The notes: generated by a model from the letters alone, not told the origin. Positions 6,560 through 19,668 are shown, counted from the first letter of the stretch. The stretch is 38,177 nucleotides of DNA from Candidatus Edwardsiibacteriota bacterium (GCA_020053305.1 JAGVNJ010000060.1:1-38177), one strand, 5' to 3'. Made by a program: numbers and translations.

Positions 6560-6583
6560 AGCCGCCTGATGGCGGCTTTTTTC
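6560..6583 (+). terminator. Intrinsic terminator
   Basis: A 7-bp stem (AGCCGCC / GGCGGCT) with a TGAT loop is followed by a T-run. It lies 10 nt after the stop of the duplicated-cysteine gene. Confidence 0.85.
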
Positions 6584-6618: not shown

Positions 6619-7257
6619 ATGAAAATTACATATCGCATAGCATTATCTGCCATTATTATTTTTGCGGCATCCTGCGCCGGTCCATATATCCGGAGCCGGG
6701 AGATGCCCCGCGAAGAAATGCAAAAACGGCAGGAGATCGTGGAATGCGCCAAGGGGCTGATGGGGAGCAAGGACCTTGCCTCTATGAATAAATGCTTCAA
6801 GAACGACTGCTCCGGTTTCGCTATAGGTGTGTATCGCCTGATGGGCTTCCGGGTGGATATCAGATCGCACCGGAAAAACCGATCGTTGTCAGAAATGCTG
6901 TTCTTAAACCTGCAGGATAAAGGGATGGCCTACCGCGAACATCAGCCCAACATCGGAGATGCGGTGTTCTTCAAGAATACCACCGATGTGGTCTACGACC
7001 GGATAACCCACATGGGCCTGGTGGAGGAGGTATTTCCGGATGGGACTATCTTAATAATTCACTATAGTTCGGGGATGGTCAACCGGATCAGAATGAACCT
7101 GAAAGATCCCTATCGCGAAAAGAACAGCCGGGGGAAAGTGATCAACAATTATCTCAAGCGGGACGACGCCGGAGCCGGAAAGAGGAACATACTGGCCGGG
7201 GCGCTGTTCCACTCCTACGGCGACATCTATAACTACTGCCGAAGAAATAGAAGATAA
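6619..7257 (+). CDS. Lipoprotein with NlpC/P60-like cysteine peptidase fold
   Basis: The N-terminus is a lipoprotein signal peptide with the lipidated cysteine at residue 19 (FAASCAGP). Cys64 in NDCSGF fits the nucleophile of NlpC/P60 amidases, and His131 in THMGLVEEV fits the catalytic histidine, with His148 (IIHYSSG) as a possible third residue. NIGDAVFF is the usual strand between them (GDxxFF). Such proteins cut peptide bonds in murein or related amides at the cell envelope. The length of 212 residues suits one catalytic domain. It has its own start after a terminator, and the nitroreductase gene follows 14 nt later. Confidence 0.75.
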   Translation: MKITYRIALSAIIIFAASCAGPYIRSREMPREEMQKRQEIVECAKGLMGSKDLASMNKCFKNDCSGFAIGVYRLMGFRVDIRSHRKNRSLSEMLFLNLQDKGMAYREHQPNIGDAVFFKNTTDVVYDRITHMGLVEEVFPDGTILIIHYSSGMVNRIRMNLKDPYREKNSRGKVINNYLKRDDAGAGKRNILAGALFHSYGDIYNYCRRNRR

Positions 7258-7271
7258 ACCAGGAGGATGAT

Positions 7272-8192
7272 ATGCCAGGCGACCAAATGCCATCCCATCA
7301 CGGCGTCAAACAGGCTCCGAAAGGCATCTACCCCAACGATACCCTTAAACTGCTGATAGAGCGGGGAAGCTGCCGGAATTTCACCGGGAAAAAGATCCCG
7401 TCCCGAACCATGGAGCACATATTAAGTGCCGGGGTCCATGCCGCCACCGGCGGCAATCTGCAGCCCTACTCGGTCATAAAAATCGAGGATCCCCGGACAA
7501 ATAAAAAACTGGCCGAAATGTGCCTCCAGCCATTTATCGGGCAGGCCCCGGCCAACCTGTTGTTCTGCCTGGACTGGCGGCGGCTGGAGCGCTGGGCCAG
7601 GCTGGAGGATGCCCCCTTCACCGCCAACAATTCCTTCCGTCACTTCTGGATTTCATTCCAGGACGCCATCATCTGCGCCCAGAACATCTGCACCGCGGCC
7701 GATTCGCTGGGCCTGGGTTCGGTATACATCGGGACGGTGCTGGAGTTCTTTCCACGTCTAAAAAAGATGTTCAACTTGCCCCAGGGGGTTTTCCCGGTGG
7801 TCCTGCTGACCCTGGGCTATCCCAAGGTCAAGCCCTTGTCCCGGAAGAAGCTGCCTCCATCCGCGGTGGTGCATAGCGAAAGATATTCCGAAATGGCGGA
7901 TGCCTTATTGCTAAAGGCTTTCAACGATAAATACCCGGAGGTGAAAATCGAGATAACCCCGGAACGCTTGAAGAGGTTCGAAAAAGTCTGTCTAAAAGTG
8001 GGCGGCAGGAAATTTGCCGACAAATGTCTGGCCAGGGTCAGAAAACAGGGATATATAAATCCCGTTCAAAGATATTTCGGCCTGCACTATGTGGCCGATT
8101 ACATGCCGGAGGGGAACCTGAAATTTTTGAAACAGTTCGAAAACTTCGGGTTCGGATGGTTCCGGGACTACAAACCGCAAGGCGGGAAATAG
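7272..8192 (+). CDS. Nitroreductase-family protein with C-terminal extension
   Basis: The N-terminal 200 residues match the FMN-binding nitroreductase fold: IERGSCRNFTGKKI (phosphate-binding basic patch), AGVHAATGGNLQPYSV, and late AADSLGLGSVYIG followed by VVLLTLGYP. The remaining ~100 residues carry basic helices and the segment YFGLHYVADYMPEGN, seen in a subset of these proteins and of unknown role. The likely activity is NAD(P)H-dependent reduction of an unknown substrate. A good AGGAGG ribosome site precedes the ATG. The exchanger gene starts 1 nt after its stop, so co-transcription is likely. Confidence 0.85.
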   Translation: MPGDQMPSHHGVKQAPKGIYPNDTLKLLIERGSCRNFTGKKIPSRTMEHILSAGVHAATGGNLQPYSVIKIEDPRTNKKLAEMCLQPFIGQAPANLLFCLDWRRLERWARLEDAPFTANNSFRHFWISFQDAIICAQNICTAADSLGLGSVYIGTVLEFFPRLKKMFNLPQGVFPVVLLTLGYPKVKPLSRKKLPPSAVVHSERYSEMADALLLKAFNDKYPEVKIEITPERLKRFEKVCLKVGGRKFADKCLARVRKQGYINPVQRYFGLHYVADYMPEGNLKFLKQFENFGFGWFRDYKPQGGK

Positions 8193-8193
8193 C

Positions 8194-9198
8194 ATGTTGA
8201 TTGTCTGGTTGAAACTCGTTTTATTGGTAGCGTTGATTGTGTTTGCCGGGTCCAAGCTGTCGCGCTACGGCGATATTTTGGGTGAGAAGCTGGGGCTTTC
8301 GGGCAACTGGATAGGGGTGGTGCTGCTGGCGGCGGTGACCTCCCTGCCGGAGTTGTTCTCGGGCATCTCCTCCTCGGCCCTGGTGCGCCAGCCGGACCTG
8401 GCCCTGGGGAATATCTACGGGGCCTGTGTGATGAACCTAGTGGTGGTGGCGGTGATCAGCACCCTGCATACTGATGGTCCGATATCGGCCAGGGTGGGGC
8501 GGGAGCAGTCGCTGAGCGCTGCCTTGGGCATAATAGCCGTAGCGCTATCCGGGATCGGCCTGTTCGTCAGCCGGCAGATACTGCCGATATCCCTGTTCGA
8601 TGTGGGCCTGTTCTCGTTCGCCATCTTTATATTCTATCTGGTGGCCCAGCAGATGATATTCAGGCACGAAAAGGAGAATCCCAGTCAGCGGGAGGAAATC
8701 CGGTATTCGCACATAACCCGGAGAGGGGCGGTCATCAGGTTCTGTCTGGCGGCGGCGGTGATCGTGGCCGCCGGGTTTTACCTGCCCATGGTGGCTGATG
8801 AACTGGCCGGTGTCATGGGCTGGGGCCGTTCCTTCGTAGGCACCGTATTCATGTCGCTGGCCACCACCAGCCCGGAACTGGTGGTCTCCATCAGCGCCCT
8901 CCGGATGGGCCAGGCCGGAATGGCTCTGGGGAACCTTTTCGGCAGCTGTATATTCAATATCAGCCTGATCTTCATCGACGATATTTTCTATCACGGAGCC
9001 ATCATGGCTGATGCCTCGCCCACCCACATCTTTACCGCCTTCCTGACCCTGGCCATGATGGGAGTGGCCCTGACCGGACTGCTGTTTCCGGCCAAGAGGA
9101 AGGGGCTGATCAAGGTGGGCTGGGATGCGGCCGTTATTTTCGGGCTGTACTTGTTGGGGGTGTATGTGATCTTCAGGATGGGCCTGACTCTGGGTTAA
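8194..9198 (+). CDS. Sodium/calcium exchanger family protein (CaCA, YrbG-like)
   Basis: An integral membrane protein with the two inverted repeats of the CaCA family. The alpha-1 motif is at about residues 46-75 (VTSLPELFSGISS, then ALGNIYGACVMNL) and alpha-2 at about 225-255 (TTSPELVVSISAL, then ALGNLFGSCIFNI). Both contain the SLPE/TSPE and GN.(Y/F)G motifs with the acidic and asparagine residues that bind cation. About ten membrane helices are visible and the length (334) is typical. It should exchange Na+ (or H+) for Ca2+ or another cation. It is the first of six closely spaced genes leading into trehalose synthesis. Confidence 0.9.
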   Translation: MLIVWLKLVLLVALIVFAGSKLSRYGDILGEKLGLSGNWIGVVLLAAVTSLPELFSGISSSALVRQPDLALGNIYGACVMNLVVVAVISTLHTDGPISARVGREQSLSAALGIIAVALSGIGLFVSRQILPISLFDVGLFSFAIFIFYLVAQQMIFRHEKENPSQREEIRYSHITRRGAVIRFCLAAAVIVAAGFYLPMVADELAGVMGWGRSFVGTVFMSLATTSPELVVSISALRMGQAGMALGNLFGSCIFNISLIFIDDIFYHGAIMADASPTHIFTAFLTLAMMGVALTGLLFPAKRKGLIKVGWDAAVIFGLYLLGVYVIFRMGLTLG

Positions 9199-9226
9199 CT
9201 AAGCAAACAATGCAGGATCATCTTCG

Positions 9227-10366
9227 ATGGAAAAATATATCAGCGACATAAGCGTGATAGTGGTGTTCTCTGCGGTTCTGTCGTGGCTGGCGATAATCTC
9301 CCGGCAGCCGCTGATCATCGGTTATCTGGTCTGCGGGGCCCTGATCGGCCCCTGGGGCTTCAAACTGGTCAAGGACGTAAGTTTCGTCAATGCCGTCTCC
9401 CAGCTGGGGATAATATTATTGCTGTTCCATGCCGGACTGGTTCTGCATCCCCGGCGGCTGAAGCAGCTGTTCAGACCGACCGCCCTGATCACATCGGGGC
9501 AGAGCCTGCTGGTATGGGCCGGGGTGTTTTTATTGGCCCTGGTTTTCGGCTACAGCCTGAAATCCGGAATTATCATCGGGCTGACCATGATCTTCAGCAG
9601 CACCATCCTGGTGGTCAAGCTGATTCCCACCACCACCCTGCACCATCAGAGGATGGGGGCCTTCGCCATAGCCATCTTGATAGCCCAGGATATTATCGCG
9701 GTCGGTTTCCTGGCGCTGATCAGCGGCACCGGCCATCCCCTGTGGCTTTTGGTGAAGGGGATGCTTCTGGCGGCGGCGGCCCTGGCCTTTGAACATTTTC
9801 TGTTGCGAAAAATAATGCGGCGGATCCAGCACTATCACGAAGTTCTTTTCCTGATGGCCCTGGGATGGGGTTTGGGGCTGGCCCTGGCCGCCCACCTGAT
9901 AGGCTTCTCCCCGGAGGCGGCGGCCTTCATCGCCGGGGTGGCCCTGGCCCGGGAGCCGCTGGCCCTGTTTCTTTCCGAGGGATTAAAGCAATTCCGGGAT
10001 TTTTTCCTGGTTTTCTTTTTTTTCGTGCTGGGCGCCCAGTTCAACTTTGGCCAGGCCGGAGCTATAATAATACCCGCATTGATTCTGTCCCTGGCTGTGA
10101 TGGCCATCAAAATGTTCAGCTTTGAGACGTTGTTCCGGCTGGTGGGGGAAACGAAGAAATTTTCCCGGGAGGCCGGGATCAGGCTTTCCCAGTCCAGCGA
10201 GTTCGCCCTGATCATCGCCGCCGCCCTGTTCGGACTGGGTCATATAGACGGCAGGACCTGGCAGATGATACAGATGGTGACCATCTTTACCATGGTGATG
10301 TCCTCATATCTGGTGGTCTTCATATACCCCACGCCGCTGGGTGCGGAGGGGTTGCAGAAAGTGTGA
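9227..10366 (+). CDS. CPA2-family cation:proton antiporter (KefB-like membrane domain)
   Basis: It consists of a membrane domain only, about 12 helices in 379 residues. The family motifs are visible: GYLVCGALIGPWGF early, LLLFHAGL (helix 3), TMIFSSTILVVKL, and AIAILIAQDIIAV with the ion-binding QD. No C-terminal RCK/TrkA domain is present, so nucleotide gating as in KefB/KefC is unlikely. The expected activity is K+ or Na+/H+ exchange. It lies 28 nt after the CaCA exchanger and 31 nt before the trehalose-phosphate synthase, which suggests a role in ionic or osmotic stress. Confidence 0.88.
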   Translation: MEKYISDISVIVVFSAVLSWLAIISRQPLIIGYLVCGALIGPWGFKLVKDVSFVNAVSQLGIILLLFHAGLVLHPRRLKQLFRPTALITSGQSLLVWAGVFLLALVFGYSLKSGIIIGLTMIFSSTILVVKLIPTTTLHHQRMGAFAIAILIAQDIIAVGFLALISGTGHPLWLLVKGMLLAAAALAFEHFLLRKIMRRIQHYHEVLFLMALGWGLGLALAAHLIGFSPEAAAFIAGVALAREPLALFLSEGLKQFRDFFLVFFFFVLGAQFNFGQAGAIIIPALILSLAVMAIKMFSFETLFRLVGETKKFSREAGIRLSQSSEFALIIAAALFGLGHIDGRTWQMIQMVTIFTMVMSSYLVVFIYPTPLGAEGLQKV

Positions 10367-10397
10367 GCTTTGGGAAAATATTATTTAAGAAGATAAT

Positions 10398-12626
10398 ATG
10401 AAATTTAATTTTACCATCATTATTTCGATATTCATCGCCGTCAGCCTGGTGGTGTTGGGCTTTGCCCTGGTTCAGGTTCATCAGGAGAGGCAGCGGCTGA
10501 ATATCGAACTGGAGCAGCGGGCCAATTTGCTGGGTGAGGCCCTCCATGAAAGCATCTCCGGCCAGCTGGCCCAGGAGAATTACCAGAAGATCAGCCAGCT
10601 GGTGGCAAAGTTCAACCAGAAACAGCGGATCTTGGGGCTGGCGGTCTATAATGTCAAGGACAGCCTGGTGGGGATCTCCCCGGGCTTGGAGATATACATG
10701 CCTTTCGCCCAGATTCCCCTGAAGCAGGCCATGGGAGTGGACAGCTGTTTCGGCCAGCAGTTAAAGGCCGGCACCAAAAATTTTTATCTGCACATCAGGC
10801 CCATCCATGAAGAGGGGCCTCTGGTAGGAGCTGCGGTGCTTTTTCAGGACACCGATTATATTCAAAAAAGGCTGGGGGATATCTGGCGGGCCAATTTCAT
10901 CAGGTTGCTGGTGCTGGCCCTGGCGGTGGCTCTGGTAACCACCCTGGTGATCCAGTGGAGCATTTTTATCCCGATGAACCGGATGGTGGAATGGATGAAG
11001 AACCTGCGGGAGCAGAAGCCTTCAACCGAGGCCGTGATGCCTCCCCAGGACTTCTTCTCACCCTTGAGCCGGGAGGTGTCCCACATGGCCGAGAGTATTC
11101 TGGAAGCCAGGGAGGCGGCCGAACAGGAGGCCCGCCTCCGGGCCATGGGAGAATCGGTATGGACCCCGGAACGTCTCAAGGAGGAGATGCGGACACTGCT
11201 GGACGACAAGCAGCTGGTGGTGGTCTCCAATCGGGAGCCGTACATGCACAACCGGAAAGGCAAGAGCATCGAATGGATCATGCCGGCCAGCGGAATGGTC
11301 ACCGCCATAGAGCCGATCCTCAAGGCCTGCGGAGGTACCTGGATAGCCTCTGGCACCGGGGACGCAGATCGGGATGTGGTTGACGAGGACGACAAGGTCC
11401 GGGTGCCGCCCGATGATCCCCGCTATAATCTGAAAAGACTGTGGCTGTCCAAGGAGGAGGAAGAGGGCTTTTATTACGGTTTTTCCAACGAGGGGTTGTG
11501 GCCGCTGTGTCATATTGCCCATACCCGCCCCATCTTTCGCAAGGAGGACTGGCAGTACTACCAGCAGGTCAACCAGAAGTTCGCCGATGCCGTGCTGGAT
11601 GAGATCGAGGGGTTGGAGGAGCCGCTGATCCTGATCCAGGATTACCATTTTGCCTTGCTGCCGCAGATGCTGAAATCAAAAAGGCCCGATGCCCGGGTGG
11701 CCATCTTCTGGCACATCCCCTGGCCCAACTCCGAGTCCTTCGGGATCTGCCCCTGGCAGAGGGAGCTGCTTTACGGCATGCAGGGGGCCGACCTGATAGG
11801 GTTTCACACCCAATTCCACTGCAATAATTTTCTCGATACCATGGCCCGGGCAGTGGAATCCCAGATCAACTGGGACAATTTTACCGTCAGGGTGGGCGGC
11901 CACACCACTCTGGTAAAACCGTTTCCCATCAGCATCGCCTTTACCCTGCTGGATATGGAGCGGGTCCCCGAGCACCAGGCCTCCAAGGAGGACCTGTTCA
12001 AGGAGCATGGCATCAAGGCCGAATTCATGGGGGTGGGCGTCGACCGGCTGGATTATACCAAGGGTCTGATAGAGAGATTCCTGGCGGTGGAGAATTTTCT
12101 GGAAAGAAATCCCGAATACCAGGGAAAATTCACCTTCGTGGAGCTGGGGGCCCCCAGCCGGACCCATATCAAGCGTTACTCCGACCTGGTGGCCGAGGTG
12201 GAGAAGGAGGTCGAGAGGATAAACTGGCGTTTCAAGGGCAAGGACTGGAAGCCGATACTGTTCCTGAAGAAGCATCACAGCCATCAGGAGATCGCCCCCT
12301 ACTACCAGGCGGCGGACCTTTGCATGGTCACCTCCCTGCATGACGGCATGAACCTGGTGGCCAAGGAATTCATCGCCTCCCGGAGCAACGGGGACGGGGT
12401 GTTGATCCTGAGCCGGTTCACCGGGGCGGTTCGCGAGATGCGGGATGCCTTGCTAATCAATCCCTACGACATAGAACGCACCGCCGGGGCCATCAGGTAC
12501 GCCCTGGAGATGCCGGCCGATGAGAGGAAACAGAGGATGGGGAACATGCGCCAGCATCTGCTTAAGAATAACATCTTCCTTTGGGCGGCCCGCTTGATCA
12601 GAGAACTCAGCGCAGTAAGAGTGTAA
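10398..12626 (+). CDS. Membrane-anchored trehalose-6-phosphate synthase (GT20) with sensor-like N-terminus
   Basis: The 742-residue protein has two parts. Residues 1-260 look like a receptor: a membrane helix at about 5-27, an extracytoplasmic domain of about 130 residues, a second helix at about 166-190, and a HAMP-like coiled segment (IFIPMNRMVEWMKNLREQ, then EVSHMAESILEAREAAEQE). From about 270 it is a GT20 synthase: VVSNREPY, GTWIASGTGD, IQDYHFALLP, HIPWPNSESFGICPW, VDRLDYTKGL and HDGMNLVAKEF. GT20 enzymes join a sugar nucleotide to glucose-6-phosphate. The HIPWPN...CPW variant also occurs in glucosylglycerol-phosphate synthases, so the acceptor is not certain. The downstream phosphatase and TreT-like gene favour trehalose. 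Classical OtsA lacks the first 260 residues. Confidence 0.88.
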   Translation: MKFNFTIIISIFIAVSLVVLGFALVQVHQERQRLNIELEQRANLLGEALHESISGQLAQENYQKISQLVAKFNQKQRILGLAVYNVKDSLVGISPGLEIYMPFAQIPLKQAMGVDSCFGQQLKAGTKNFYLHIRPIHEEGPLVGAAVLFQDTDYIQKRLGDIWRANFIRLLVLALAVALVTTLVIQWSIFIPMNRMVEWMKNLREQKPSTEAVMPPQDFFSPLSREVSHMAESILEAREAAEQEARLRAMGESVWTPERLKEEMRTLLDDKQLVVVSNREPYMHNRKGKSIEWIMPASGMVTAIEPILKACGGTWIASGTGDADRDVVDEDDKVRVPPDDPRYNLKRLWLSKEEEEGFYYGFSNEGLWPLCHIAHTRPIFRKEDWQYYQQVNQKFADAVLDEIEGLEEPLILIQDYHFALLPQMLKSKRPDARVAIFWHIPWPNSESFGICPWQRELLYGMQGADLIGFHTQFHCNNFLDTMARAVESQINWDNFTVRVGGHTTLVKPFPISIAFTLLDMERVPEHQASKEDLFKEHGIKAEFMGVGVDRLDYTKGLIERFLAVENFLERNPEYQGKFTFVELGAPSRTHIKRYSDLVAEVEKEVERINWRFKGKDWKPILFLKKHHSHQEIAPYYQAADLCMVTSLHDGMNLVAKEFIASRSNGDGVLILSRFTGAVREMRDALLINPYDIERTAGAIRYALEMPADERKQRMGNMRQHLLKNNIFLWAARLIRELSAVRV

Positions 12627-12647
12627 TTTTATTAGTTAGGTGATGAT

Positions 12648-13484
12648 ATGCGAAGCAAGGCCAAAAACCCTTTCGTCTTTATGACCTCATCCTCCCTGGT
12701 GACCATTACCGAACGCAAGGCCGGTAATATCAGGGAGCTGCTGGAGGGCATCAAAGTGGTAAGCGGATCGTCCATCTACCATCACAGCCACCAGGTATAC
12801 CGGGAATGGCAGACCTTCGGCCGGCCGCCTATCCATGACTTCGGATACTGGGTGGGTGAGGTGATCCGGGAAAAGGGGCTGGGAGAAAGACTGGCGGCGG
12901 TGGATCCCACCCAGTACGACGACATCAGGAGTTTTCGAAGCCGGCTGGTGGAGATAATTGAAGAGCACCTGGCCAGCGATCCCATAACAAACCAGGCACC
13001 CCAGGGGAGCCAGTTCAACTTCTGCGAGTCGACCTCGGTAATTCTGGACACCGGCGCCAGGGCCGGAAACCTGGATGAATTCATCCAGGCCCTGGGAAGG
13101 ATCACCAGCCGCTCCCTGTATTACCATCTTTTCGAGGCCAGGATCAGGCTGCACCGTTTTGACAACGATTTTTCCATCTGGCTCCGGGAACAGCTGGAGG
13201 CGCCGGAGATAGCCGCTGAGATATCCAAACTGGATATCTCGGTGTCAAGCCTGGAACAGTTGAGGGCCCATCTGTTCATCATCCTGGGGAAATATCGGGG
13301 AGTGCCTCCCGGGGAGCTGGTGAAAAAAGTGGTCCAGCTGCCGGCCGAGATGATAGAATTGCTGATGGATACCATATCCTACCCGGTCCGCAGCCTTAAT
13401 CGTTTTTTCGATGAGAAGATAAAACCCGAGGAACTGTCCGCTCTCCGTTCCAAGGGCAATAACCGCAAGGGAGGGACGAAGTAG
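12648..13484 (+). CDS. DUF5752-family protein, internally duplicated
   Basis: I recognise this as the DUF5752 type found beside trehalose glycosyltransferases; its function is unknown. Two halves resemble each other. One runs from about residue 43 (GSSIYHHSHQVYREWQTF...DFGYWVGEVI...IRSFRSRLVEIIEEHL). The other runs from about residue 160 (SRSLYYHLFEARIRLHRF...DFSIWLREQL...SLEQLRAHLFIILGKY). Each has an aromatic/histidine cluster, a Trp-containing helix and a terminal amphipathic helix. The first copy has HHSH where the second has YYHLFEAR. It is 21 nt after the synthase and 1 nt before the TreT-like gene, so it is very likely translated with them. A helper or regulatory role for the glycosyltransferase is an inference. 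Confidence 0.75.
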   Translation: MRSKAKNPFVFMTSSSLVTITERKAGNIRELLEGIKVVSGSSIYHHSHQVYREWQTFGRPPIHDFGYWVGEVIREKGLGERLAAVDPTQYDDIRSFRSRLVEIIEEHLASDPITNQAPQGSQFNFCESTSVILDTGARAGNLDEFIQALGRITSRSLYYHLFEARIRLHRFDNDFSIWLREQLEAPEIAAEISKLDISVSSLEQLRAHLFIILGKYRGVPPGELVKKVVQLPAEMIELLMDTISYPVRSLNRFFDEKIKPEELSALRSKGNNRKGGTK

Positions 13485-13485
13485 C

Positions 13486-14718
13486 ATGGCTTTAGCAAAA
13501 TTAGACGATTACCGCCAGGTGGTGGGCGACCCCGAGATAGAAGAGATGCGGGCCATCGCCCGCCAGCTGAAGGGCGCCCGGATGAAACATATCAACTCCA
13601 CCTCGGTGGGCGGCGGAGTGGCGGAGATCCTGCACCGGATGGTGCCGCTGCTCAACGAAATGGATATCCTGGCCAGATGGGAGGTGATCAAGGGGGGCGA
13701 CGATTTTTTCAATATCACCAAGGCTTTTCACAACGCCCTCCACGGCAAACCGGAAAATATAACCCCGGAGATGTTCCGGGTGTTTATTGATTACAACCGT
13801 AAAAATGCCGAGGAGATGGATTTTTCCCAGGACGATTTCGTGTTCATCCACGACCCCCAGCCCATCTGTCTGATAGAGAAAAGGGCCCAATCCAAGGCCC
13901 ATTGGGTCTGGCGCTGCCATATAGATATCTCCACTCCCCAATCCGATCTTTGGGAATTCCTTAAAAATTATGTGGAGCGATACGAAGGAGCGGTCATCTC
14001 GTCCCCCAGCTTCTCCCAGAAATTATCGGTTCCCCAGTTCCTGATCCCGCCATCCATCGATCCGCTGGCCGACAAGAACAAGGAGTTGGAGCCGCGATTC
14101 ATCAATTCGGTATTCGAAAAGTACGGCATTGACCGCAAGCGGCCTATCGTCACCCAGATCTCCAGGTTCGACCGCCTGAAGGATCCGGTGGGCCTGATCA
14201 AAGCCTTTAAGATGGTCAATAAAAAGCTGGACTGCCAGCTGGTGCTGGCCGGGGGCGGGGCCACCGACGATCCCGAGGGCCTGCTGGTGCTGGAGGAGGT
14301 CAAGGCCGAGGCCGAAGGCAGCCCCGATATCCATATTCTCCACCTGGCGCCGGGGGCCGACCTGGAGATCAACGCCCTGGTCCGGGGTTCTTCCATCATC
14401 GTCCAGAACTCCATCAAGGAGGGCTTCGGCCTGACGGTTTCCGAGGCCCTGTGGAAGGGAAAGGCCATCATCAGCCGGCCGGTGGGCGGCATCACCCAGC
14501 AGGTGCTGCACGACGTCACCGGCCTGCTGGTCCATTCCACCGAAGGGCTGGCCTATTCCATCCGCTATCTGCTGGCCAATCCGGAGCTGGCCTCGGCCCT
14601 GGGCAAGACCGGCAAGGAGTTCGTCAGGGGCAATTTCCTGATCACCCGCCACCTGCGCCGCTATATGCTGGTGATGCTATCCACCAGGTTCTCCGGCCAT
14701 AAGGAAATCTGCCTATGA
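13486..14718 (+). CDS. treT: TreT-like trehalose glycosyltransferring synthase (GT4)
   Basis: A GT-B glycosyltransferase of 410 residues. The N-terminal lobe has HINSTSVGGGVAEILHRMVPLL, FFNITKAFHNALHG and VFIHDPQP, all characteristic of TreT, which forms trehalose directly from an NDP-glucose and glucose. The C-terminal lobe has VTQISRFDRLKDPVGLI, LAGGGATDDPEG and the GT4 E-x7-E motif in EGFGLTVSEALW. TreT can run in either direction, so it may also break trehalose down. It sits between the DUF5752 gene (1 nt) and the phosphatase (4-nt overlap). Its presence next to a GT20 synthase means two routes to trehalose in one operon. Confidence 0.88.
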   Translation: MALAKLDDYRQVVGDPEIEEMRAIARQLKGARMKHINSTSVGGGVAEILHRMVPLLNEMDILARWEVIKGGDDFFNITKAFHNALHGKPENITPEMFRVFIDYNRKNAEEMDFSQDDFVFIHDPQPICLIEKRAQSKAHWVWRCHIDISTPQSDLWEFLKNYVERYEGAVISSPSFSQKLSVPQFLIPPSIDPLADKNKELEPRFINSVFEKYGIDRKRPIVTQISRFDRLKDPVGLIKAFKMVNKKLDCQLVLAGGGATDDPEGLLVLEEVKAEAEGSPDIHILHLAPGADLEINALVRGSSIIVQNSIKEGFGLTVSEALWKGKAIISRPVGGITQQVLHDVTGLLVHSTEGLAYSIRYLLANPELASALGKTGKEFVRGNFLITRHLRRYMLVMLSTRFSGHKEICL

Positions 14719-15434
14719 TCCTGCTGATGCTGGATTTCGACGGAACCCTGGCCCCCATCCGGCCCCGCCCCGAAATGGCCAAGCTTTCGGCCGGCGCCCT
14801 GAATCTGCTTGAACGGCTGGGGAGGTCTCCGGATGTAATACTGGCCATCATCAGCGGGCGGAAGCTGGCCGAACTGAAAAAGCTGGTGCCGGTTCGGGGC
14901 ATATATTACGCCGGTTGCCACGGCCTGGAGATCAACGGGCCCGGAATAAAATTTATCCACCCCCGGGCCAGGGCGGCCCTCCCCGACCTGAAAGCCCTGA
15001 AGAAAGATCTAAAAAGTTTGAAAGGCCAACTGCCCGGGGCCCTGATCGAGGACAAGGGATTTTCGGTTGCCTTCCATTTTCGCAACATGGCCGGGCGGCA
15101 TATCGCTTTTATGAACGAACAGATCTCCGGGATGCAAAAAAAATATCCCCGTCTGCTCTGCCAGCCTGGCAGGAAGGTGTATGATTTCAGGCCCAAGGTG
15201 TCCTGGGACAAGGGGCGGGCCGTCAAGCTGCTATTGAACAAGCTTTGCAGTAAAAAACCGTTCCCGGTATATATCGGCGATGATGCTACCGATGAGGATG
15301 CTTTTAGAGCGTTACGGGGGATTGGTCTTACTATTTTAGTAGAGAACCCGGAGAGAGGCCGGGGTCGGACCGCGGCGGTTTATCGGCTGGCATCCCCGGC
15401 CAAAGTACTGACATTTTTAAAATCCCTGTTATGA
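14715..15434 (+). CDS. otsB: Trehalose-6-phosphate phosphatase (HAD-IIB)
   Basis: A HAD-superfamily phosphatase of 239 residues, usual for OtsB. The four motifs are in order: DFDGTLAPI (nucleophile Asp8 and acid Asp10), SGR at about residue 51, a lysine in the WDKGRAV segment, and GDDATDEDAFRAL (Mg2+-binding acids). It should convert trehalose-6-phosphate to trehalose after the upstream GT20 enzyme. The ATG overlaps the TreT stop in an ATGA, so translation is coupled. The last codons are slightly AT-richer, and the gene ends the operon before a cluster of hairpins. Confidence 0.92.
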   Translation: MILLMLDFDGTLAPIRPRPEMAKLSAGALNLLERLGRSPDVILAIISGRKLAELKKLVPVRGIYYAGCHGLEINGPGIKFIHPRARAALPDLKALKKDLKSLKGQLPGALIEDKGFSVAFHFRNMAGRHIAFMNEQISGMQKKYPRLLCQPGRKVYDFRPKVSWDKGRAVKLLLNKLCSKKPFPVYIGDDATDEDAFRALRGIGLTILVENPERGRGRTAAVYRLASPAKVLTFLKSLL

Positions 15435-15712: not shown

Positions 15713-15737
15713 AGCCGCCCTTTTGGGGCGGCTTTTT
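15713..15737 (+). terminator. Intrinsic terminator at left edge of AT-rich island
   Basis: An 8-bp stem (AGCCGCCC / GGGCGGCT) is followed by five Ts. It probably ends the trehalose operon. The sequence AACCAGCCGCCCTTTT is repeated at 20078-20093, beyond the restriction-modification genes. Confidence 0.8.
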
Positions 15738-15947: not shown

Positions 15948-17060
15948 ATGTTGTCGTTAATAAATAGACTTAATAAAATTGATTGGAATTTCCCCAATTC
16001 CAATACAGCAGGTGGGATAAATTCGATACATCCTTATCCTGCAAAATTTATTCAAGAAATACCAAAAGAGCTTATAGGTATTATTGGTGTTCCGAAAGGC
16101 ACTTGCGTTTTTGACCCTTTTTGTGGCAGTGGAGCAACTCTTGTAGAAGCTCAATTAGCGGGGAAACCATCTATTGGGATTGACCTTAATCCAATTGCAT
16201 GCTTGATTAGCAGAGTTAAAACACAACCGTTGACATCCTCTTTCATGGAATGTGTTAAGCACGTAATTAATAGTGCACAGTCATACACAAAGATTACAAT
16301 TCCCCAAATACCTAATCTTGACCATTGGTTTATGCCAGAAATTCAAGAAACAACAGCGAAATTATTATTATCTATAGAGTCTGTAAAGGAACAGCGTATT
16401 AAAGATGCTTTGCGTCTTGCTTTATCTAGTGTATTAGTCCGTGTTTCCAACCAAGAAAGCGATACACGATATGCTGCGATAAACAAAGATATCGATGCCA
16501 ACAAGTATTACTCCCTATTTTCCAGGGCAGCAGAGCATCTTTGGAAAGTCAAGAATGCTTACAAACCAAAATTCTACAATACTGAAGTGTTGTGTAAGGA
16601 CACTTTGGCAGTAACTAAAAAAGAAATTAAACAACCCGTTGGCTTGGTAATTACATCTCCGCCTTATCCTAATGCTTATGAATATTGGTTATATCATAAA
16701 TATCGAATGTTTTGGCTGGGCTTCGACCCTATTCAAGTTAAACGAAATGAAATAGGTGCCAGGGCACACTATTACAAGAAAAATCCGCCGACCGCAAATG
16801 ATTTTCATAATCAAATGGTAACTTTATTTAATTTGTTTTGGGATGTGGTCGTTAAAAATGGTTATGTATGTGTTGTTATTGGCCGGTCGAAAGTGCACGG
16901 TAAAATTATAGACAATGCTTCTATAATCAATGATGTGGGCAAATTGGTAGGTTTTACACCAATGTTGAAATTGTCAAGGCTTATTGCATCTTCCAGAAAG
17001 ACATTCAACTTGTCACATGCTAATATCATTAACGAGAATATATTAATATTCAGGAAATAA
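15948..17060 (+). CDS. Site-specific DNA methyltransferase 1 (SPPY type)
   Basis: A class I DNA methyltransferase of 370 residues. The SAM-binding motif I is at about residues 54-62 (FDPFCGSGATLVEA), preceded by HPYPAKFI and followed by GIDLNPIA. The catalytic motif IV is TSPPYPNAYEYW from about residue 236. SPPY in this position is usual for N4-cytosine methyltransferases, although N6-adenine specificity cannot be excluded. Its stop codon shares one base with the start of a second methyltransferase. The gene is AT-rich and unlike the backbone in codon use. No Shine-Dalgarno sequence precedes the ATG, which fits a leaderless transcript. It should protect host DNA against the PLD nuclease encoded two genes downstream. 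Confidence 0.88.
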   Translation: MLSLINRLNKIDWNFPNSNTAGGINSIHPYPAKFIQEIPKELIGIIGVPKGTCVFDPFCGSGATLVEAQLAGKPSIGIDLNPIACLISRVKTQPLTSSFMECVKHVINSAQSYTKITIPQIPNLDHWFMPEIQETTAKLLLSIESVKEQRIKDALRLALSSVLVRVSNQESDTRYAAINKDIDANKYYSLFSRAAEHLWKVKNAYKPKFYNTEVLCKDTLAVTKKEIKQPVGLVITSPPYPNAYEYWLYHKYRMFWLGFDPIQVKRNEIGARAHYYKKNPPTANDFHNQMVTLFNLFWDVVVKNGYVCVVIGRSKVHGKIIDNASIINDVGKLVGFTPMLKLSRLIASSRKTFNLSHANIINENILIFRK

Positions 17061-18589
17061 TGATGGAAACTAATACCGCATTTCTGAATTGGAATACATA
17101 CCGTTATTTCCCATACGAACGTGATTTGGGTGAGCGTGAAGCTATTGCTTTATTAAATCCTGAGAAGTTGGTTGTTAGTAATGACAACCTTCAGGTTTTA
17201 GGTAGGTTTAATGAAATGCAATTGAAGCGTCTTGTATATTTTAGCGGATATACGGTAAAAGGGAAAACTATATCTACACTTCAAAAAGACCTGGAATGTT
17301 CCAGTATAACAAATGGTTCCCATAACCGCCAATCAACAAGATATTCAGTCCACGGACTTCATGAATATAAAGGTAAATTTAATCCCCAGGTTGTTAGAGG
17401 CATATTGAATGTTCTTGGGGTTACGCCGAAATCGAAAATCATTGACCCGTTCTGCGGTAGTGGCACATCTCTTGTCGAATGCGCGCATGGCGGTATGAAT
17501 GCAATTGGATTGGATATGAATCCTTTGGCTGTTTATATATCAAACGCAAAATTACTAGCGTTGAGTACCCCGCAACGGGTTCTTATGGATATATTTACCA
17601 AATTAGTTGATAAAAGCGAAAAGGTTGTAATAAAGCCTTCGTTACGTGATATTAAGCATCAGGATAAACGATATGAGTATCTAAGCAGGTGGTTTGATAA
17701 AAAAACACTAATTGCTCTTGAATCGCTAAAATCATACATACATTCTTTTGCCGAGGAGTACCAGGGTATATTCATGGTCATTGCTAGCGATTTATTGCGT
17801 GATTATTCGCTACAAGAGCCTAAGGATTTACGAATACGTCGGAGATATAGTCCGTTCCCTGAGCAAGCGTTATGGCCTGCCTTTAAACGGAAAACGCAAA
17901 AGTTTCTTGATAATCTGGATTCAGTTCAACAGGTAATCGGTGTTAAAAAGTATAGTAGTAACGCTATTTTATGTGATAGCCGTTCAGTAGATACATCTAA
18001 TTTTATTGGGCGTCCGGTCGCAGGGTTTGATGCTGCAATTACAAGTCCTCCTTATGCGACGGCTCTACCCTATATTGATACACAGAGATTGAGCCTGGTA
18101 TGGTTAGAACTTATTTCACCCAGTGACATTGGTTGTCTAGGAGCAAGATTAACAGGGAGTCGTGAATTTGTTCAAGAGCAAAAGATGAAATCGCAGGATT
18201 CTTTTGAAAACAATAAAAACGAGCTACCTGATAGTGCTTATAAATATTGTATAAAGTTAAATAAAGCAATAGCATCCTATGACGGTTTTAGAAGAAGATC
18301 CGTTCCGTTACTTCTATATCGTTACCTTAGTGATATGCAGGATATTTTCCGGGGAATGTTTAATATCATGAGACCTTCTGCGCCTTTTGCTCTTATTGTT
18401 GGTCACAATAGAACAACACTTGGAGGTAAATTGATTAGTATTGATACTCCATCTCTTTTATGTAGCATTGCAGAGAGTTGCGGATGGATACATGAGGATA
18501 GTATTGCCTTACAAACATATCAAAGATATGATTCTCACAAAGCGAATTCAGTCAAAGCGGAAACACTACTGATTGTGAAAAAACCATGA
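17060..18589 (+). CDS. Site-specific DNA methyltransferase 2 (SPPY type)
   Basis: The 509-residue protein is a second methyltransferase of the same broad type. An N-terminal extension of about 95 residues comes first. Then come VHGLHEYKGKFNPQVV and motif I (IIDPFCGSGTSLVECAHGG) near residue 130, GLDMNPLAVYISN, and motif IV (ITSPPYATALPYID) near residue 328. The pair of HxYxxKF and SPPY motifs suggests m4C activity, as for its neighbour. Two methyltransferases with one nuclease are expected where the recognition site is asymmetric and each strand needs its own enzyme. The gene overlaps its upstream partner by 1 nt and the nuclease by 4 nt (ATGA). Confidence 0.87.
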   Translation: MMETNTAFLNWNTYRYFPYERDLGEREAIALLNPEKLVVSNDNLQVLGRFNEMQLKRLVYFSGYTVKGKTISTLQKDLECSSITNGSHNRQSTRYSVHGLHEYKGKFNPQVVRGILNVLGVTPKSKIIDPFCGSGTSLVECAHGGMNAIGLDMNPLAVYISNAKLLALSTPQRVLMDIFTKLVDKSEKVVIKPSLRDIKHQDKRYEYLSRWFDKKTLIALESLKSYIHSFAEEYQGIFMVIASDLLRDYSLQEPKDLRIRRRYSPFPEQALWPAFKRKTQKFLDNLDSVQQVIGVKKYSSNAILCDSRSVDTSNFIGRPVAGFDAAITSPPYATALPYIDTQRLSLVWLELISPSDIGCLGARLTGSREFVQEQKMKSQDSFENNKNELPDSAYKYCIKLNKAIASYDGFRRRSVPLLLYRYLSDMQDIFRGMFNIMRPSAPFALIVGHNRTTLGGKLISIDTPSLLCSIAESCGWIHEDSIALQTYQRYDSHKANSVKAETLLIVKKP

Positions 18590-19668
18590 TAGAATTTGGT
18601 TTGCATCCAAATATTTATGCCACAGGTAAATTACGTGGGCTTCGCAGTATGTTGGAAGAAATATGGGACCATTCTCATAAGCCAGGTACAGGAACATTAT
18701 TTATTCTAGCCGGGTTTGCCAATTATAATGGCGGTGCACGGTTTTATCGTTTATTTAAAGAACATACCGATAAAGGTGGGAAAATTATTGCATTTTTAGG
18801 CGGTAGTTCCTCTCAAAGAACATCGAGCCGGCAAGTAGTTGAAGCTCTTTTAGCTTGTGGAGCGGAAGTCAATATAACAAATCGTAAGAGCTTAATGCAT
18901 GCGAAGTGTTATGGCATAAAAACAAACGATGCGCAAAAACTTGTTGTAACGTCAGGTAATTTTACTGGTCCGGGTATGGCGCAAAACGTCGAAGCAGCGG
19001 TATTGTTAGATACTGATGATACCAATAAAATGGGGTTTTTATGGGATGATTTGATAAAAGGTATGCGAAGACAAAGCTGGGTAACACATAAACCTCAAAC
19101 ATTAAATTCTACTTTACCGGTTTGGAAATTATTATATGATGAAACACCTGGCATTTCACCTTTAGACCAAAGTGAAAAATCAACCCTTGTAATTAAGTTG
19201 AGCCATTCTGATACAGCCCGCATTAGGGCTCGCCCGGGTACAGATGCAGCAAAAGGAACGCAATACTTTTGGCTGAGTAAGGACTGCTTTGATTTTTTCC
19301 CTCCATTGACTATCCGAAACAACCGGGGATATAAAGGTACTCTTTCTGCTATTGTTACCTTGCATTATATTGATATTCATAAAACAGATACAAACTGCCG
19401 GGTTACATTTGAAGCTGAAAATAATCTTGATTTTAGATTAGGTACGGGTCTTTTACGGTATACACGCGCAGCGAGTGAAGATGATTTGGCCTGTATTTCT
19501 CGTATAGGCGAAGCTGAATATGAGTTACGAATCGTAAGGAAGAACACACGGCTATATCGTTCTCTTATACCTTATGCGGTTACTTTCATTGGTCATCAAG
19601 GGAAAATATTTGGGTATATGGAAAATGATTTATTTTCAGAAATATCGAATAACAAATTGGGAAATTAG
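18586..19668 (+). CDS. PLD-family restriction endonuclease (BfiI/NgoFVII-like)
   Basis: A 360-residue protein with a phospholipase D-type half-site in the N-terminal domain: His105 and Lys107 in LMHAKCYG, and Asn125 in VTSGNFTGPG, giving the HxK...(S/G)N pattern. The metal-independent restriction enzyme BfiI is about the same length and, from memory, has its catalytic histidine at position 105 too. Residues of about 190-360 form a separate domain (GTQYFWLSKDCFDFFPP, then RGYKGTLSAIVTLHYID) suited to DNA recognition, as the B3-like domain does in BfiI. One PLD motif per chain implies a dimer sharing one active site. It is translated last in the operon, coupled by an ATGA overlap to methyltransferase 2, which lets methylation come first. 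Cleavage of DNA is an inference. Confidence 0.82.
   Translation: MIEFGLHPNIYATGKLRGLRSMLEEIWDHSHKPGTGTLFILAGFANYNGGARFYRLFKEHTDKGGKIIAFLGGSSSQRTSSRQVVEALLACGAEVNITNRKSLMHAKCYGIKTNDAQKLVVTSGNFTGPGMAQNVEAAVLLDTDDTNKMGFLWDDLIKGMRRQSWVTHKPQTLNSTLPVWKLLYDETPGISPLDQSEKSTLVIKLSHSDTARIRARPGTDAAKGTQYFWLSKDCFDFFPPLTIRNNRGYKGTLSAIVTLHYIDIHKTDTNCRVTFEAENNLDFRLGTGLLRYTRAASEDDLACISRIGEAEYELRIVRKNTRLYRSLIPYAVTFIGHQGKIFGYMENDLFSEISNNKLGN

Follow-up and report, generated by a model that had tools for sequence, protein, structure and literature searches.

What governs trehalose formation in a bacterium whose trehalose-6-phosphate synthase is encoded directly behind two ion antiporters and carries two membrane helices ahead of its catalytic part? 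The question is raised by a locus of a Candidatus Edwardsiibacteriota bacterium (GCA_020053305.1, JAGVNJ010000060.1:1-38177; the whole stretch of 38,177 nt that was analysed is referred to below as the window), for which the initial annotation described a single operon of six genes and suggested that an outside or membrane signal, such as turgor or ions, might act directly on the sugar enzyme.

Gene order and history of the locus

All six ORFs are encoded on the + strand and separated by 28, 31, 21, 1 and -4 nt; coordinates, strands and gaps are exactly as initially annotated, and the family of each product is confirmed by Pfam and NCBIfam. The same-strand run is longer than these six genes, since a CHAP/NlpC-like gene and a nitroreductase gene also lie upstream of the CaCA gene; the spacing points to a likely transcription unit of eight genes (6619-15434), bounded by two terminator-like hairpins. 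The features, in window coordinates, are:

6560..6577 (+), hairpin with T-run resembling a terminator, probable upstream boundary of the transcription unit (by pattern matching alone)
6619..7257 (+), gene for a putative lipoprotein of CHAP/NlpC-P60-like type (CHAP 1e-5), 14 nt upstream of the nitroreductase gene
7272..8192 (+), nitroreductase-family protein gene (8.6e-23), ending 1 nt before the CaCA gene
8194..9198 (+), CaCA cation exchanger, 334 aa (Pfam Na_Ca_ex 2.7e-32)
9227..10366 (+), CPA2 cation/proton antiporter, transmembrane part only, 379 aa (Na_H_Exchanger 5.5e-43; NCBIfam CPA2 4.8e-37)
10367..10380 (no strand), junction at which about 3.1-3.9 kb of the same-genus genomes (genes of an ABC importer, and a GGDEF gene) is absent
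10398..12626 (+), predicted receptor-type trehalose-6-phosphate synthase (GT20), 742 aa
10410..10475 (+), TM1, residues about 5-26 (predicted structure; hydrophobicity)
10488..10853 (+), predicted extracytoplasmic single-Cache-type domain, residues 31-152 (fold order of the model; sCache/dCache matches in relatives)
10893..10961 (+), TM2, residues about 166-188 (predicted structure; hydrophobicity)
10965..11132 (+), HAMP-like segment, residues 190-245, with P192 and invariant E226 (profile alignment; connector pLDDT below 50)
11133..11210 (+), conserved linker helix (W255-T256, L260) from HAMP to the catalytic part (alignment conservation)
11211..12611 (+), GT20 catalytic part (Pfam Glyco_transf_20; OtsA substrate residues conserved)
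12648..13484 (+), DUF5752/OrfY-family protein, two tandem units of ~100 residues and a C-terminal tail (Pfam DUF5752 8e-58)
13486..14718 (+), TreT-type trehalose synthase/phosphorylase (TreT_GT1 6e-57 plus GT4; 6zj4 E 1e-123)
14715..15434 (+), OtsB-type trehalose-6-phosphate phosphatase (Trehalose_PPase 3e-42; passes the T6PP equivalog TIGR00685 with 157 bits against a cut-off of 68)
15713..15737 (+), strong GC-rich hairpin followed by a T-run, probable terminator (read from the sequence)

A candidate internal promoter before the synthase (10370-10397) was rejected, as it abuts the start codon and similar matches are frequent in shuffled sequence.

The proposed union of antiporters and trehalose genes in one operon holds for its trehalose part, which is conserved, and the antiporter part proved to be a genus trait. 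CaCA and CPA2 genes together upstream of the synthase were found in four genomes of the genus only, and members of the same family outside the genus have CaCA alone or neither. Between the CPA2 and synthase genes, three same-genus genomes hold an extra 3.1-3.9 kb, and their run includes genes for a TetR protein and a GGDEF protein and three genes of an ABC importer, all absent from the window; also absent is a gene that follows OtsB in these relatives and that we take, from its sequence, to encode a ClC channel. The alignment of the window to the relatives leaps from 10367 to 10380 across this region. Relocation of the importer was considered and rejected, the 99%-complete genome of the window containing no ortholog of its binding protein (best match 24% identical). 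As the importer is also present in another member of the same family, loss of the importer and GGDEF region in the window lineage appears to be the simpler reading. Given the intervening genes in the same-genus genomes, the direct contact of the CPA2 and synthase genes (31 nt) would be recent and due to deletion. A conserved six-gene operon was therefore rejected: the antiporters are linked within the genus only, and the tight spacing reflects the deletion.

The receptor half and the catalytic part of the synthase

The N-terminal half of the GT20 protein, in residues 1-271 of which no named Pfam domain scores above cut-off, contains two helices of strong hydrophobicity (Kyte-Doolittle maxima 3.05 and 2.68); both are present, with the extracytoplasmic domain between them, in 63/63 aligned members of the family. 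The AF2 model, built on 18 relatives (mean pLDDT 80), opens with a long helix at residues 2-58 that comprises TM1 and a stalk. The mixed alpha/beta domain after it consists, in this order, of a helix at 62-71, strands at 78-93, a helix at 101-114 and three strands at 118-151. The model continues with a helix comprising TM2 and the first HAMP helix (153-204), a poorly modelled loop, a helix at 221-253 and the GT20 part. Two HAMP-like helices thus flank a connector of low confidence (pLDDT <50), and the arrangement described in the initial annotation, two helices around an extracytoplasmic domain followed by a HAMP-like segment, is recovered in the predicted structure.

A fold search with the full model returned GT20 only among the best 50 matches, so that the assignment of the sensor fold rests on the order of its elements, on the Pfam matches of relatives and on profile alignment with hhalign. 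Among the relatives, sCache_3_2 was matched in eight members (best 4.6e-6) and dCache_3 in five (best 1.2e-7), together with dCache_1, CHASE8 and, weakly, HAMP; Pfam HAMP has no match in the window synthase and weak ones in 8/63 members (best 0.028). The full-length profile search of genomes also drew proteins of ~500 residues whose match is confined to model positions 1-260; six that were inspected resemble histidine kinases, and the three that were scanned have HAMP, HisKA and HATPase domains. Residues 1-249 of the synthase align with the sensor halves of these kinases over 249 columns (hhalign 99.8%, E 8.7e-29), the Pfam-positive kinase HAMP mapping to residues 190-245, its proline to P192 and its glutamate to E226, which is invariant in 63 sequences. 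HisKA and HATPase are absent from the window synthase, where GT20 stands in their place. The HAMP-like segment is shortened in one branch of the family. Mean pairwise identity among the 63 aligned members rises from 25% in the sensor through 32% in HAMP and 41% in the linker to 59% in GT20, a gradient of sequence conservation that is the usual receptor pattern. For the 742-aa protein, a predicted receptor layout in which the kinase is replaced by a GT20 enzyme is well supported by the modelled helices, the Cache- and HAMP-like segments, the homology to kinase sensors and the recurrence across phyla described below, in keeping with what had been suggested for it. Annotation as a plain soluble OtsA is ruled out by the two TMs in all 63 members and by the Cache-HAMP half.

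The catalytic part matches Pfam Glyco_transf_20 over residues 272-738 (E 6e-120, 401.6 bits against a cut-off of 32.5), and the closest solved structures are OtsA/Tps1 enzymes. The eleven residues checked, which in OtsA bind the donor or glucose-6-phosphate, are all conserved (R279, G299, Y359, W368, D415, H439, R550, K555, R588, D649 and E657). The fold is likewise shared with E. coli OtsA and GT20 synthases (1gz5, 5jio), which differ in having neither the 270-residue receptor half nor the linker. Substrate-contact roles of residues have been described for the mycobacterial OtsA (PMC6879718). With 423 bits, the window protein misses the cut-off of the NCBIfam OtsA equivalog TIGR02400 (565 bits), and by sequence it is a GT20 synthase outside that curated group. 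In addition, His648 is invariant family-wide where an Arg adjoins the donor-binding Asp in OtsA; the corresponding Arg of the mycobacterial enzyme, R384, belongs to an allosteric site (PMC6879718). Both the missed cut-off and the histidine would fit a GT20 part that makes another product, for instance as a glucosylglycerol-phosphate synthase, yet we consider this very improbable: the GgpS score (298 bits, cut-off 569) is far below the OtsA score, all of the donor and glucose-6-phosphate residues of OtsA are kept, and OtsB and TreT are encoded alongside. A GgpS identity in particular is disfavoured by both scores and residues, and the predicted activity of the GT20 part is trehalose-6-phosphate synthesis.

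Distribution and genomic neighbourhood

The full-length form, defined by query coverage from positions 1-40 to at least 717 and tallied by hand from the search tables, was found by profile search in at least 101 of 942 surveyed genomes from four phyla, namely at least 30/347 Acidobacteriota, 16/198 Desulfobacterota, 33/198 Nitrospirota and 22/199 Elusimicrobiota genomes, the phylum names being taken from the titles of the loci on which the searches were centred. The Desulfobacterota cases bear out, by sequence, the similar fusions in delta-type bacteria mentioned in the initial annotation. Within the window's own phylum, seven of ten genomes encode the receptor-synthase, one of them with the first 34 residues in another reading frame, and single full-length cases occur on contigs titled Lindowbacteria, Omnitrophota and Verrucomicrobia, so that the design is found in at least eight bacterial phyla. 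An assembly or frameshift fusion artefact is ruled out by the identical full-length ORF layout in >100 genomes. In a tree of 93 catalytic parts, the 46 membrane forms, including that of the window, make up one clade (SH-aLRT 97), and three changes between membrane and soluble state are needed against ~25 with shuffled labels; on this phylogenetic evidence the fusion of sensor and synthase is old and has been inherited stably. Close relatives that are soluble and have no receptor half are common in other genomes, and the receptor half is for this reason probably dispensable for catalysis itself.

Genes for OtsB, DUF5752 and TreT neighbour the synthase gene in 50, 31 and 32, respectively, of 67 loci outside the own phylum; the usual arrangement is GT20-OtsB-DUF5752-TreT or DUF5752-TreT-GT20-OtsB. 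Genes for ion transport or mechanosensitive channels (scored families: MscS, another MS-channel family, ClC, DUF1646, CaCA and CPA2, with profiles seeded from the receptor-synthase loci themselves) lie near 28/74 receptor-synthase loci and 3/40 control regions (Fisher p 2.8e-4), the loci being related by descent and the counts hence phylogenetically non-independent. As controls, 40 genomes of the same survey contributed one random region of comparable length each. With the own phylum left out, the count is 22/67 against 3/40 (p 0.0019), and in nine of these 67 loci a MscS-type gene is located within 2 kb. None of the scored families was found near 46 of the 74 loci. The proposed turgor or ion signal thus gains circumstantial support from the enrichment of nearby MscS, ClC, CaCA, CPA2 and DUF1646 genes. 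A hydrolase family, GH15-like by its sequence, flanks 15/74 loci and 0/40 controls.

Proposed mechanism, alternatives and precedents

The best explanation, held at even confidence, is that the synthase acts as a transmembrane receptor in one piece, with trehalose-6-phosphate synthesis as its output, gated by a signal and serving an osmotic role. The Cache-type domain would sense an extracytoplasmic or membrane signal, most likely tied to osmolarity, ions or turgor, and a conformational change would travel via TM2, the HAMP-like segment and then the conserved linker helix into the GT20 part, which, probably as an oligomer, would shift its activity or its partner contacts. OtsB would then convert the product to trehalose, TreT may provide a second route that supplies or turns over trehalose, and the DUF5752/OrfY protein may act as a regulator or as a partner in a complex. 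The ion exchangers of the window and the mechanosensitive or ion channels of relatives would belong to one osmotic response. We infer the ligand, the direct gating, the osmotic role and the role of DUF5752 from these comparisons, and give gating of the synthase by its receptor half a chance of about one half. The wider proposal, of a receptor class not described before and spanning at least eight phyla, in which a Cache-HAMP module directly gates the biosynthetic enzyme of a compatible solute and trehalose synthesis follows an osmotic or ionic signal from outside, is more tentative and falls somewhat short of an even chance.

Two other readings of the N-terminal module compete with signal gating by osmolarity or ions. 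The module might be a membrane anchor only, which places the synthase beside transporters or channels and transmits no signal; conservation is lowest in the extracytoplasmic domain, the Pfam HAMP matches are weak and, at two loci, soluble relatives occupy the same operon setting. We nevertheless judge this unlikely, as the homology to kinase receptors extends over the entire TM1-Cache-TM2-HAMP unit, E226 does not vary, conservation is higher in the linker than in the sensor, and a plain anchor would have no use for the Cache fold that eight phyla retain. Alternatively, a true receptor might sense a sugar or other nutrient, such as outside trehalose or maltodextrin, and balance import against synthesis, with no osmotic or ionic input. 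Cache domains usually bind small molecules, the GH15-like family neighbours part of the loci, and a sugar-type ABC importer lies between antiporters and synthase in same-genus and same-family genomes; this importer, however, is absent from the window genome, and its gene family occurs in only four survey loci, as opposed to ion or mechanosensitive genes at about a third of those outside the phylum. Nutrient sensing is accordingly rated less probable still than a mere anchor, and the osmotic receptor is retained as the preferred reading.

The components of such a receptor are known, and the novelty would lie in their combination. The TM1-Cache-TM2-HAMP module is homologous to that of Cache-HAMP histidine kinases; in those receptors it is not joined to a biosynthetic glycosyltransferase, the output found here in place of HisKA/HATPase or any other known signalling output. 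To our knowledge, HAMP-linked receptors end in signalling outputs, namely kinases, cyclases and chemotaxis domains, whereas here a metabolic enzyme, a sugar synthase forming a stress protectant, takes that position. A literature search for a sensor-fused trehalose-6-phosphate synthase returned nothing relevant, a weak absence given that subscription journals were mostly outside its scope, and a HAMP-type receptor with biosynthetic output is regarded as a new combination, not found described. Known control of OtsA operates via expression or small metabolites (PMC6879718, mycobacterial enzyme). If gating holds, an extracytoplasmic signal would be turned into an osmolyte in one step, and if it is direct, trehalose would be set by a single protein, with no need for a kinase, a second messenger or transcription. 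One purified protein would then suffice for a direct test of post-translational trehalose control in nitrifying bacteria and in those of groundwater and soil.

The best precedent for linking these proteins, as the nearest experimental one, is the msc-gt-tpsp operon of Thermoproteus tenax, in which genes for a mechanosensitive channel and a glycosyltransferase accompany that of a trehalose-6-phosphate synthase. TPS activity there needs the co-operonic glycosyltransferase, and the authors, who call the operon unique to Thermoproteus/Pyrobaculum, propose a model of osmotic or stress response (PMC3634074). T. tenax likewise has TreT and an OrfY protein of the DUF5752 family. Its enzyme is a soluble TPS-TPP fusion that has no receptor half and is regulated by complex formation, whereas in the window the synthase itself is a predicted transmembrane receptor and OtsB is separate. 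The T. tenax arrangement, a TPS-TPP fusion in one operon with a glycosyltransferase and a mechanosensitive channel, is not found here: apart from the separate OtsB, the window operon has no MscS gene, and MscS genes lie near some relatives. By analogy with T. tenax, a complex of synthase, DUF5752 protein and TreT is plausible.

The window TreT shows full-length sequence likeness to characterised trehalose synthase/phosphorylases, namely 2x6q and the trehalose phosphorylase/synthase 6zj4 (E 1e-109 to 1e-123), has both the TreT_GT1 and GT4 domains and scores below the Thermococcales equivalog cut-off; unlike those enzymes, it is bacterial and shares its operon with a complete route of the OtsA/OtsB type. 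The literature search found no paper on DUF5752 or OrfY, and the function of OrfY (PDB 4cso), deposited as a transcription factor, is the depositor's label. The window DUF5752 protein (Pfam 195.7 bits, cut-off 23) shares family and fold with T. tenax OrfY (profile E 1e-42, fold E 2.7e-15), from which it differs by an additional tail of ~60 residues. The domain itself is a tandem duplication, its halves aligning at 99.7% (E 2.5e-25).

Tandem unit in the DUF5752/OrfY protein

In the DUF5752 protein encoded between the receptor-synthase and TreT (window 12648-13484), as in the OrfY family alignment A4, a unit of about 100 residues is duplicated in tandem. His and NDF-x-W motifs are conserved in this unit; in each half a long strand comes first and helices come after it.

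Genes downstream of OtsB

The following genes lie downstream of OtsB in the window:

15948-19668: genes for two DNA methyltransferases and for a restriction enzyme resembling BfiI (BfiI_DBD and PLD domains)

In genomes of the same genus, the gene that follows OtsB at this position encodes a ClC-like channel, the ClC assignment being presumed from its sequence. The window thus appears to have undergone insertion of, or replacement by, a restriction-modification island.

Signalling genes and the sensor half in relatives

In one same-genus genome, the receptor-synthase lies directly downstream of a GGDEF (diguanylate cyclase) gene (locus L032, 6127-6948). A Desulfobacterota genome encodes, about 7.6 kb upstream of a receptor-synthase, a histidine kinase whose Cache-HAMP half is related (L196, 1016-2494). 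Two same-family genomes lacking the receptor-synthase (G008 and G006; loci L102 and L103) carry a related sensor half as the N-terminus of proteins of 1615-1625 aa; the L102 protein, the one read through, seems to contain multiple PAS domains and to have an end of HD type.

Carbohydrate and solute genes nearby

A hydrolase gene, which we take to be GH15-like, was found near the receptor-synthase in 15 of the 74 loci overall, versus none of the 40 random control regions, and is frequent in the more distant receptor-synthase group (L125, L126, L128-L130, L198-L201, L209, L210, L229, L230). Near five trehalose loci (L046, L128, L204, L227, L228), a presumed glucosyl-3-phosphoglycerate synthase-like gene recurs paired with an MS_channel_1st_1 gene, hinting at a second compatible-solute route.
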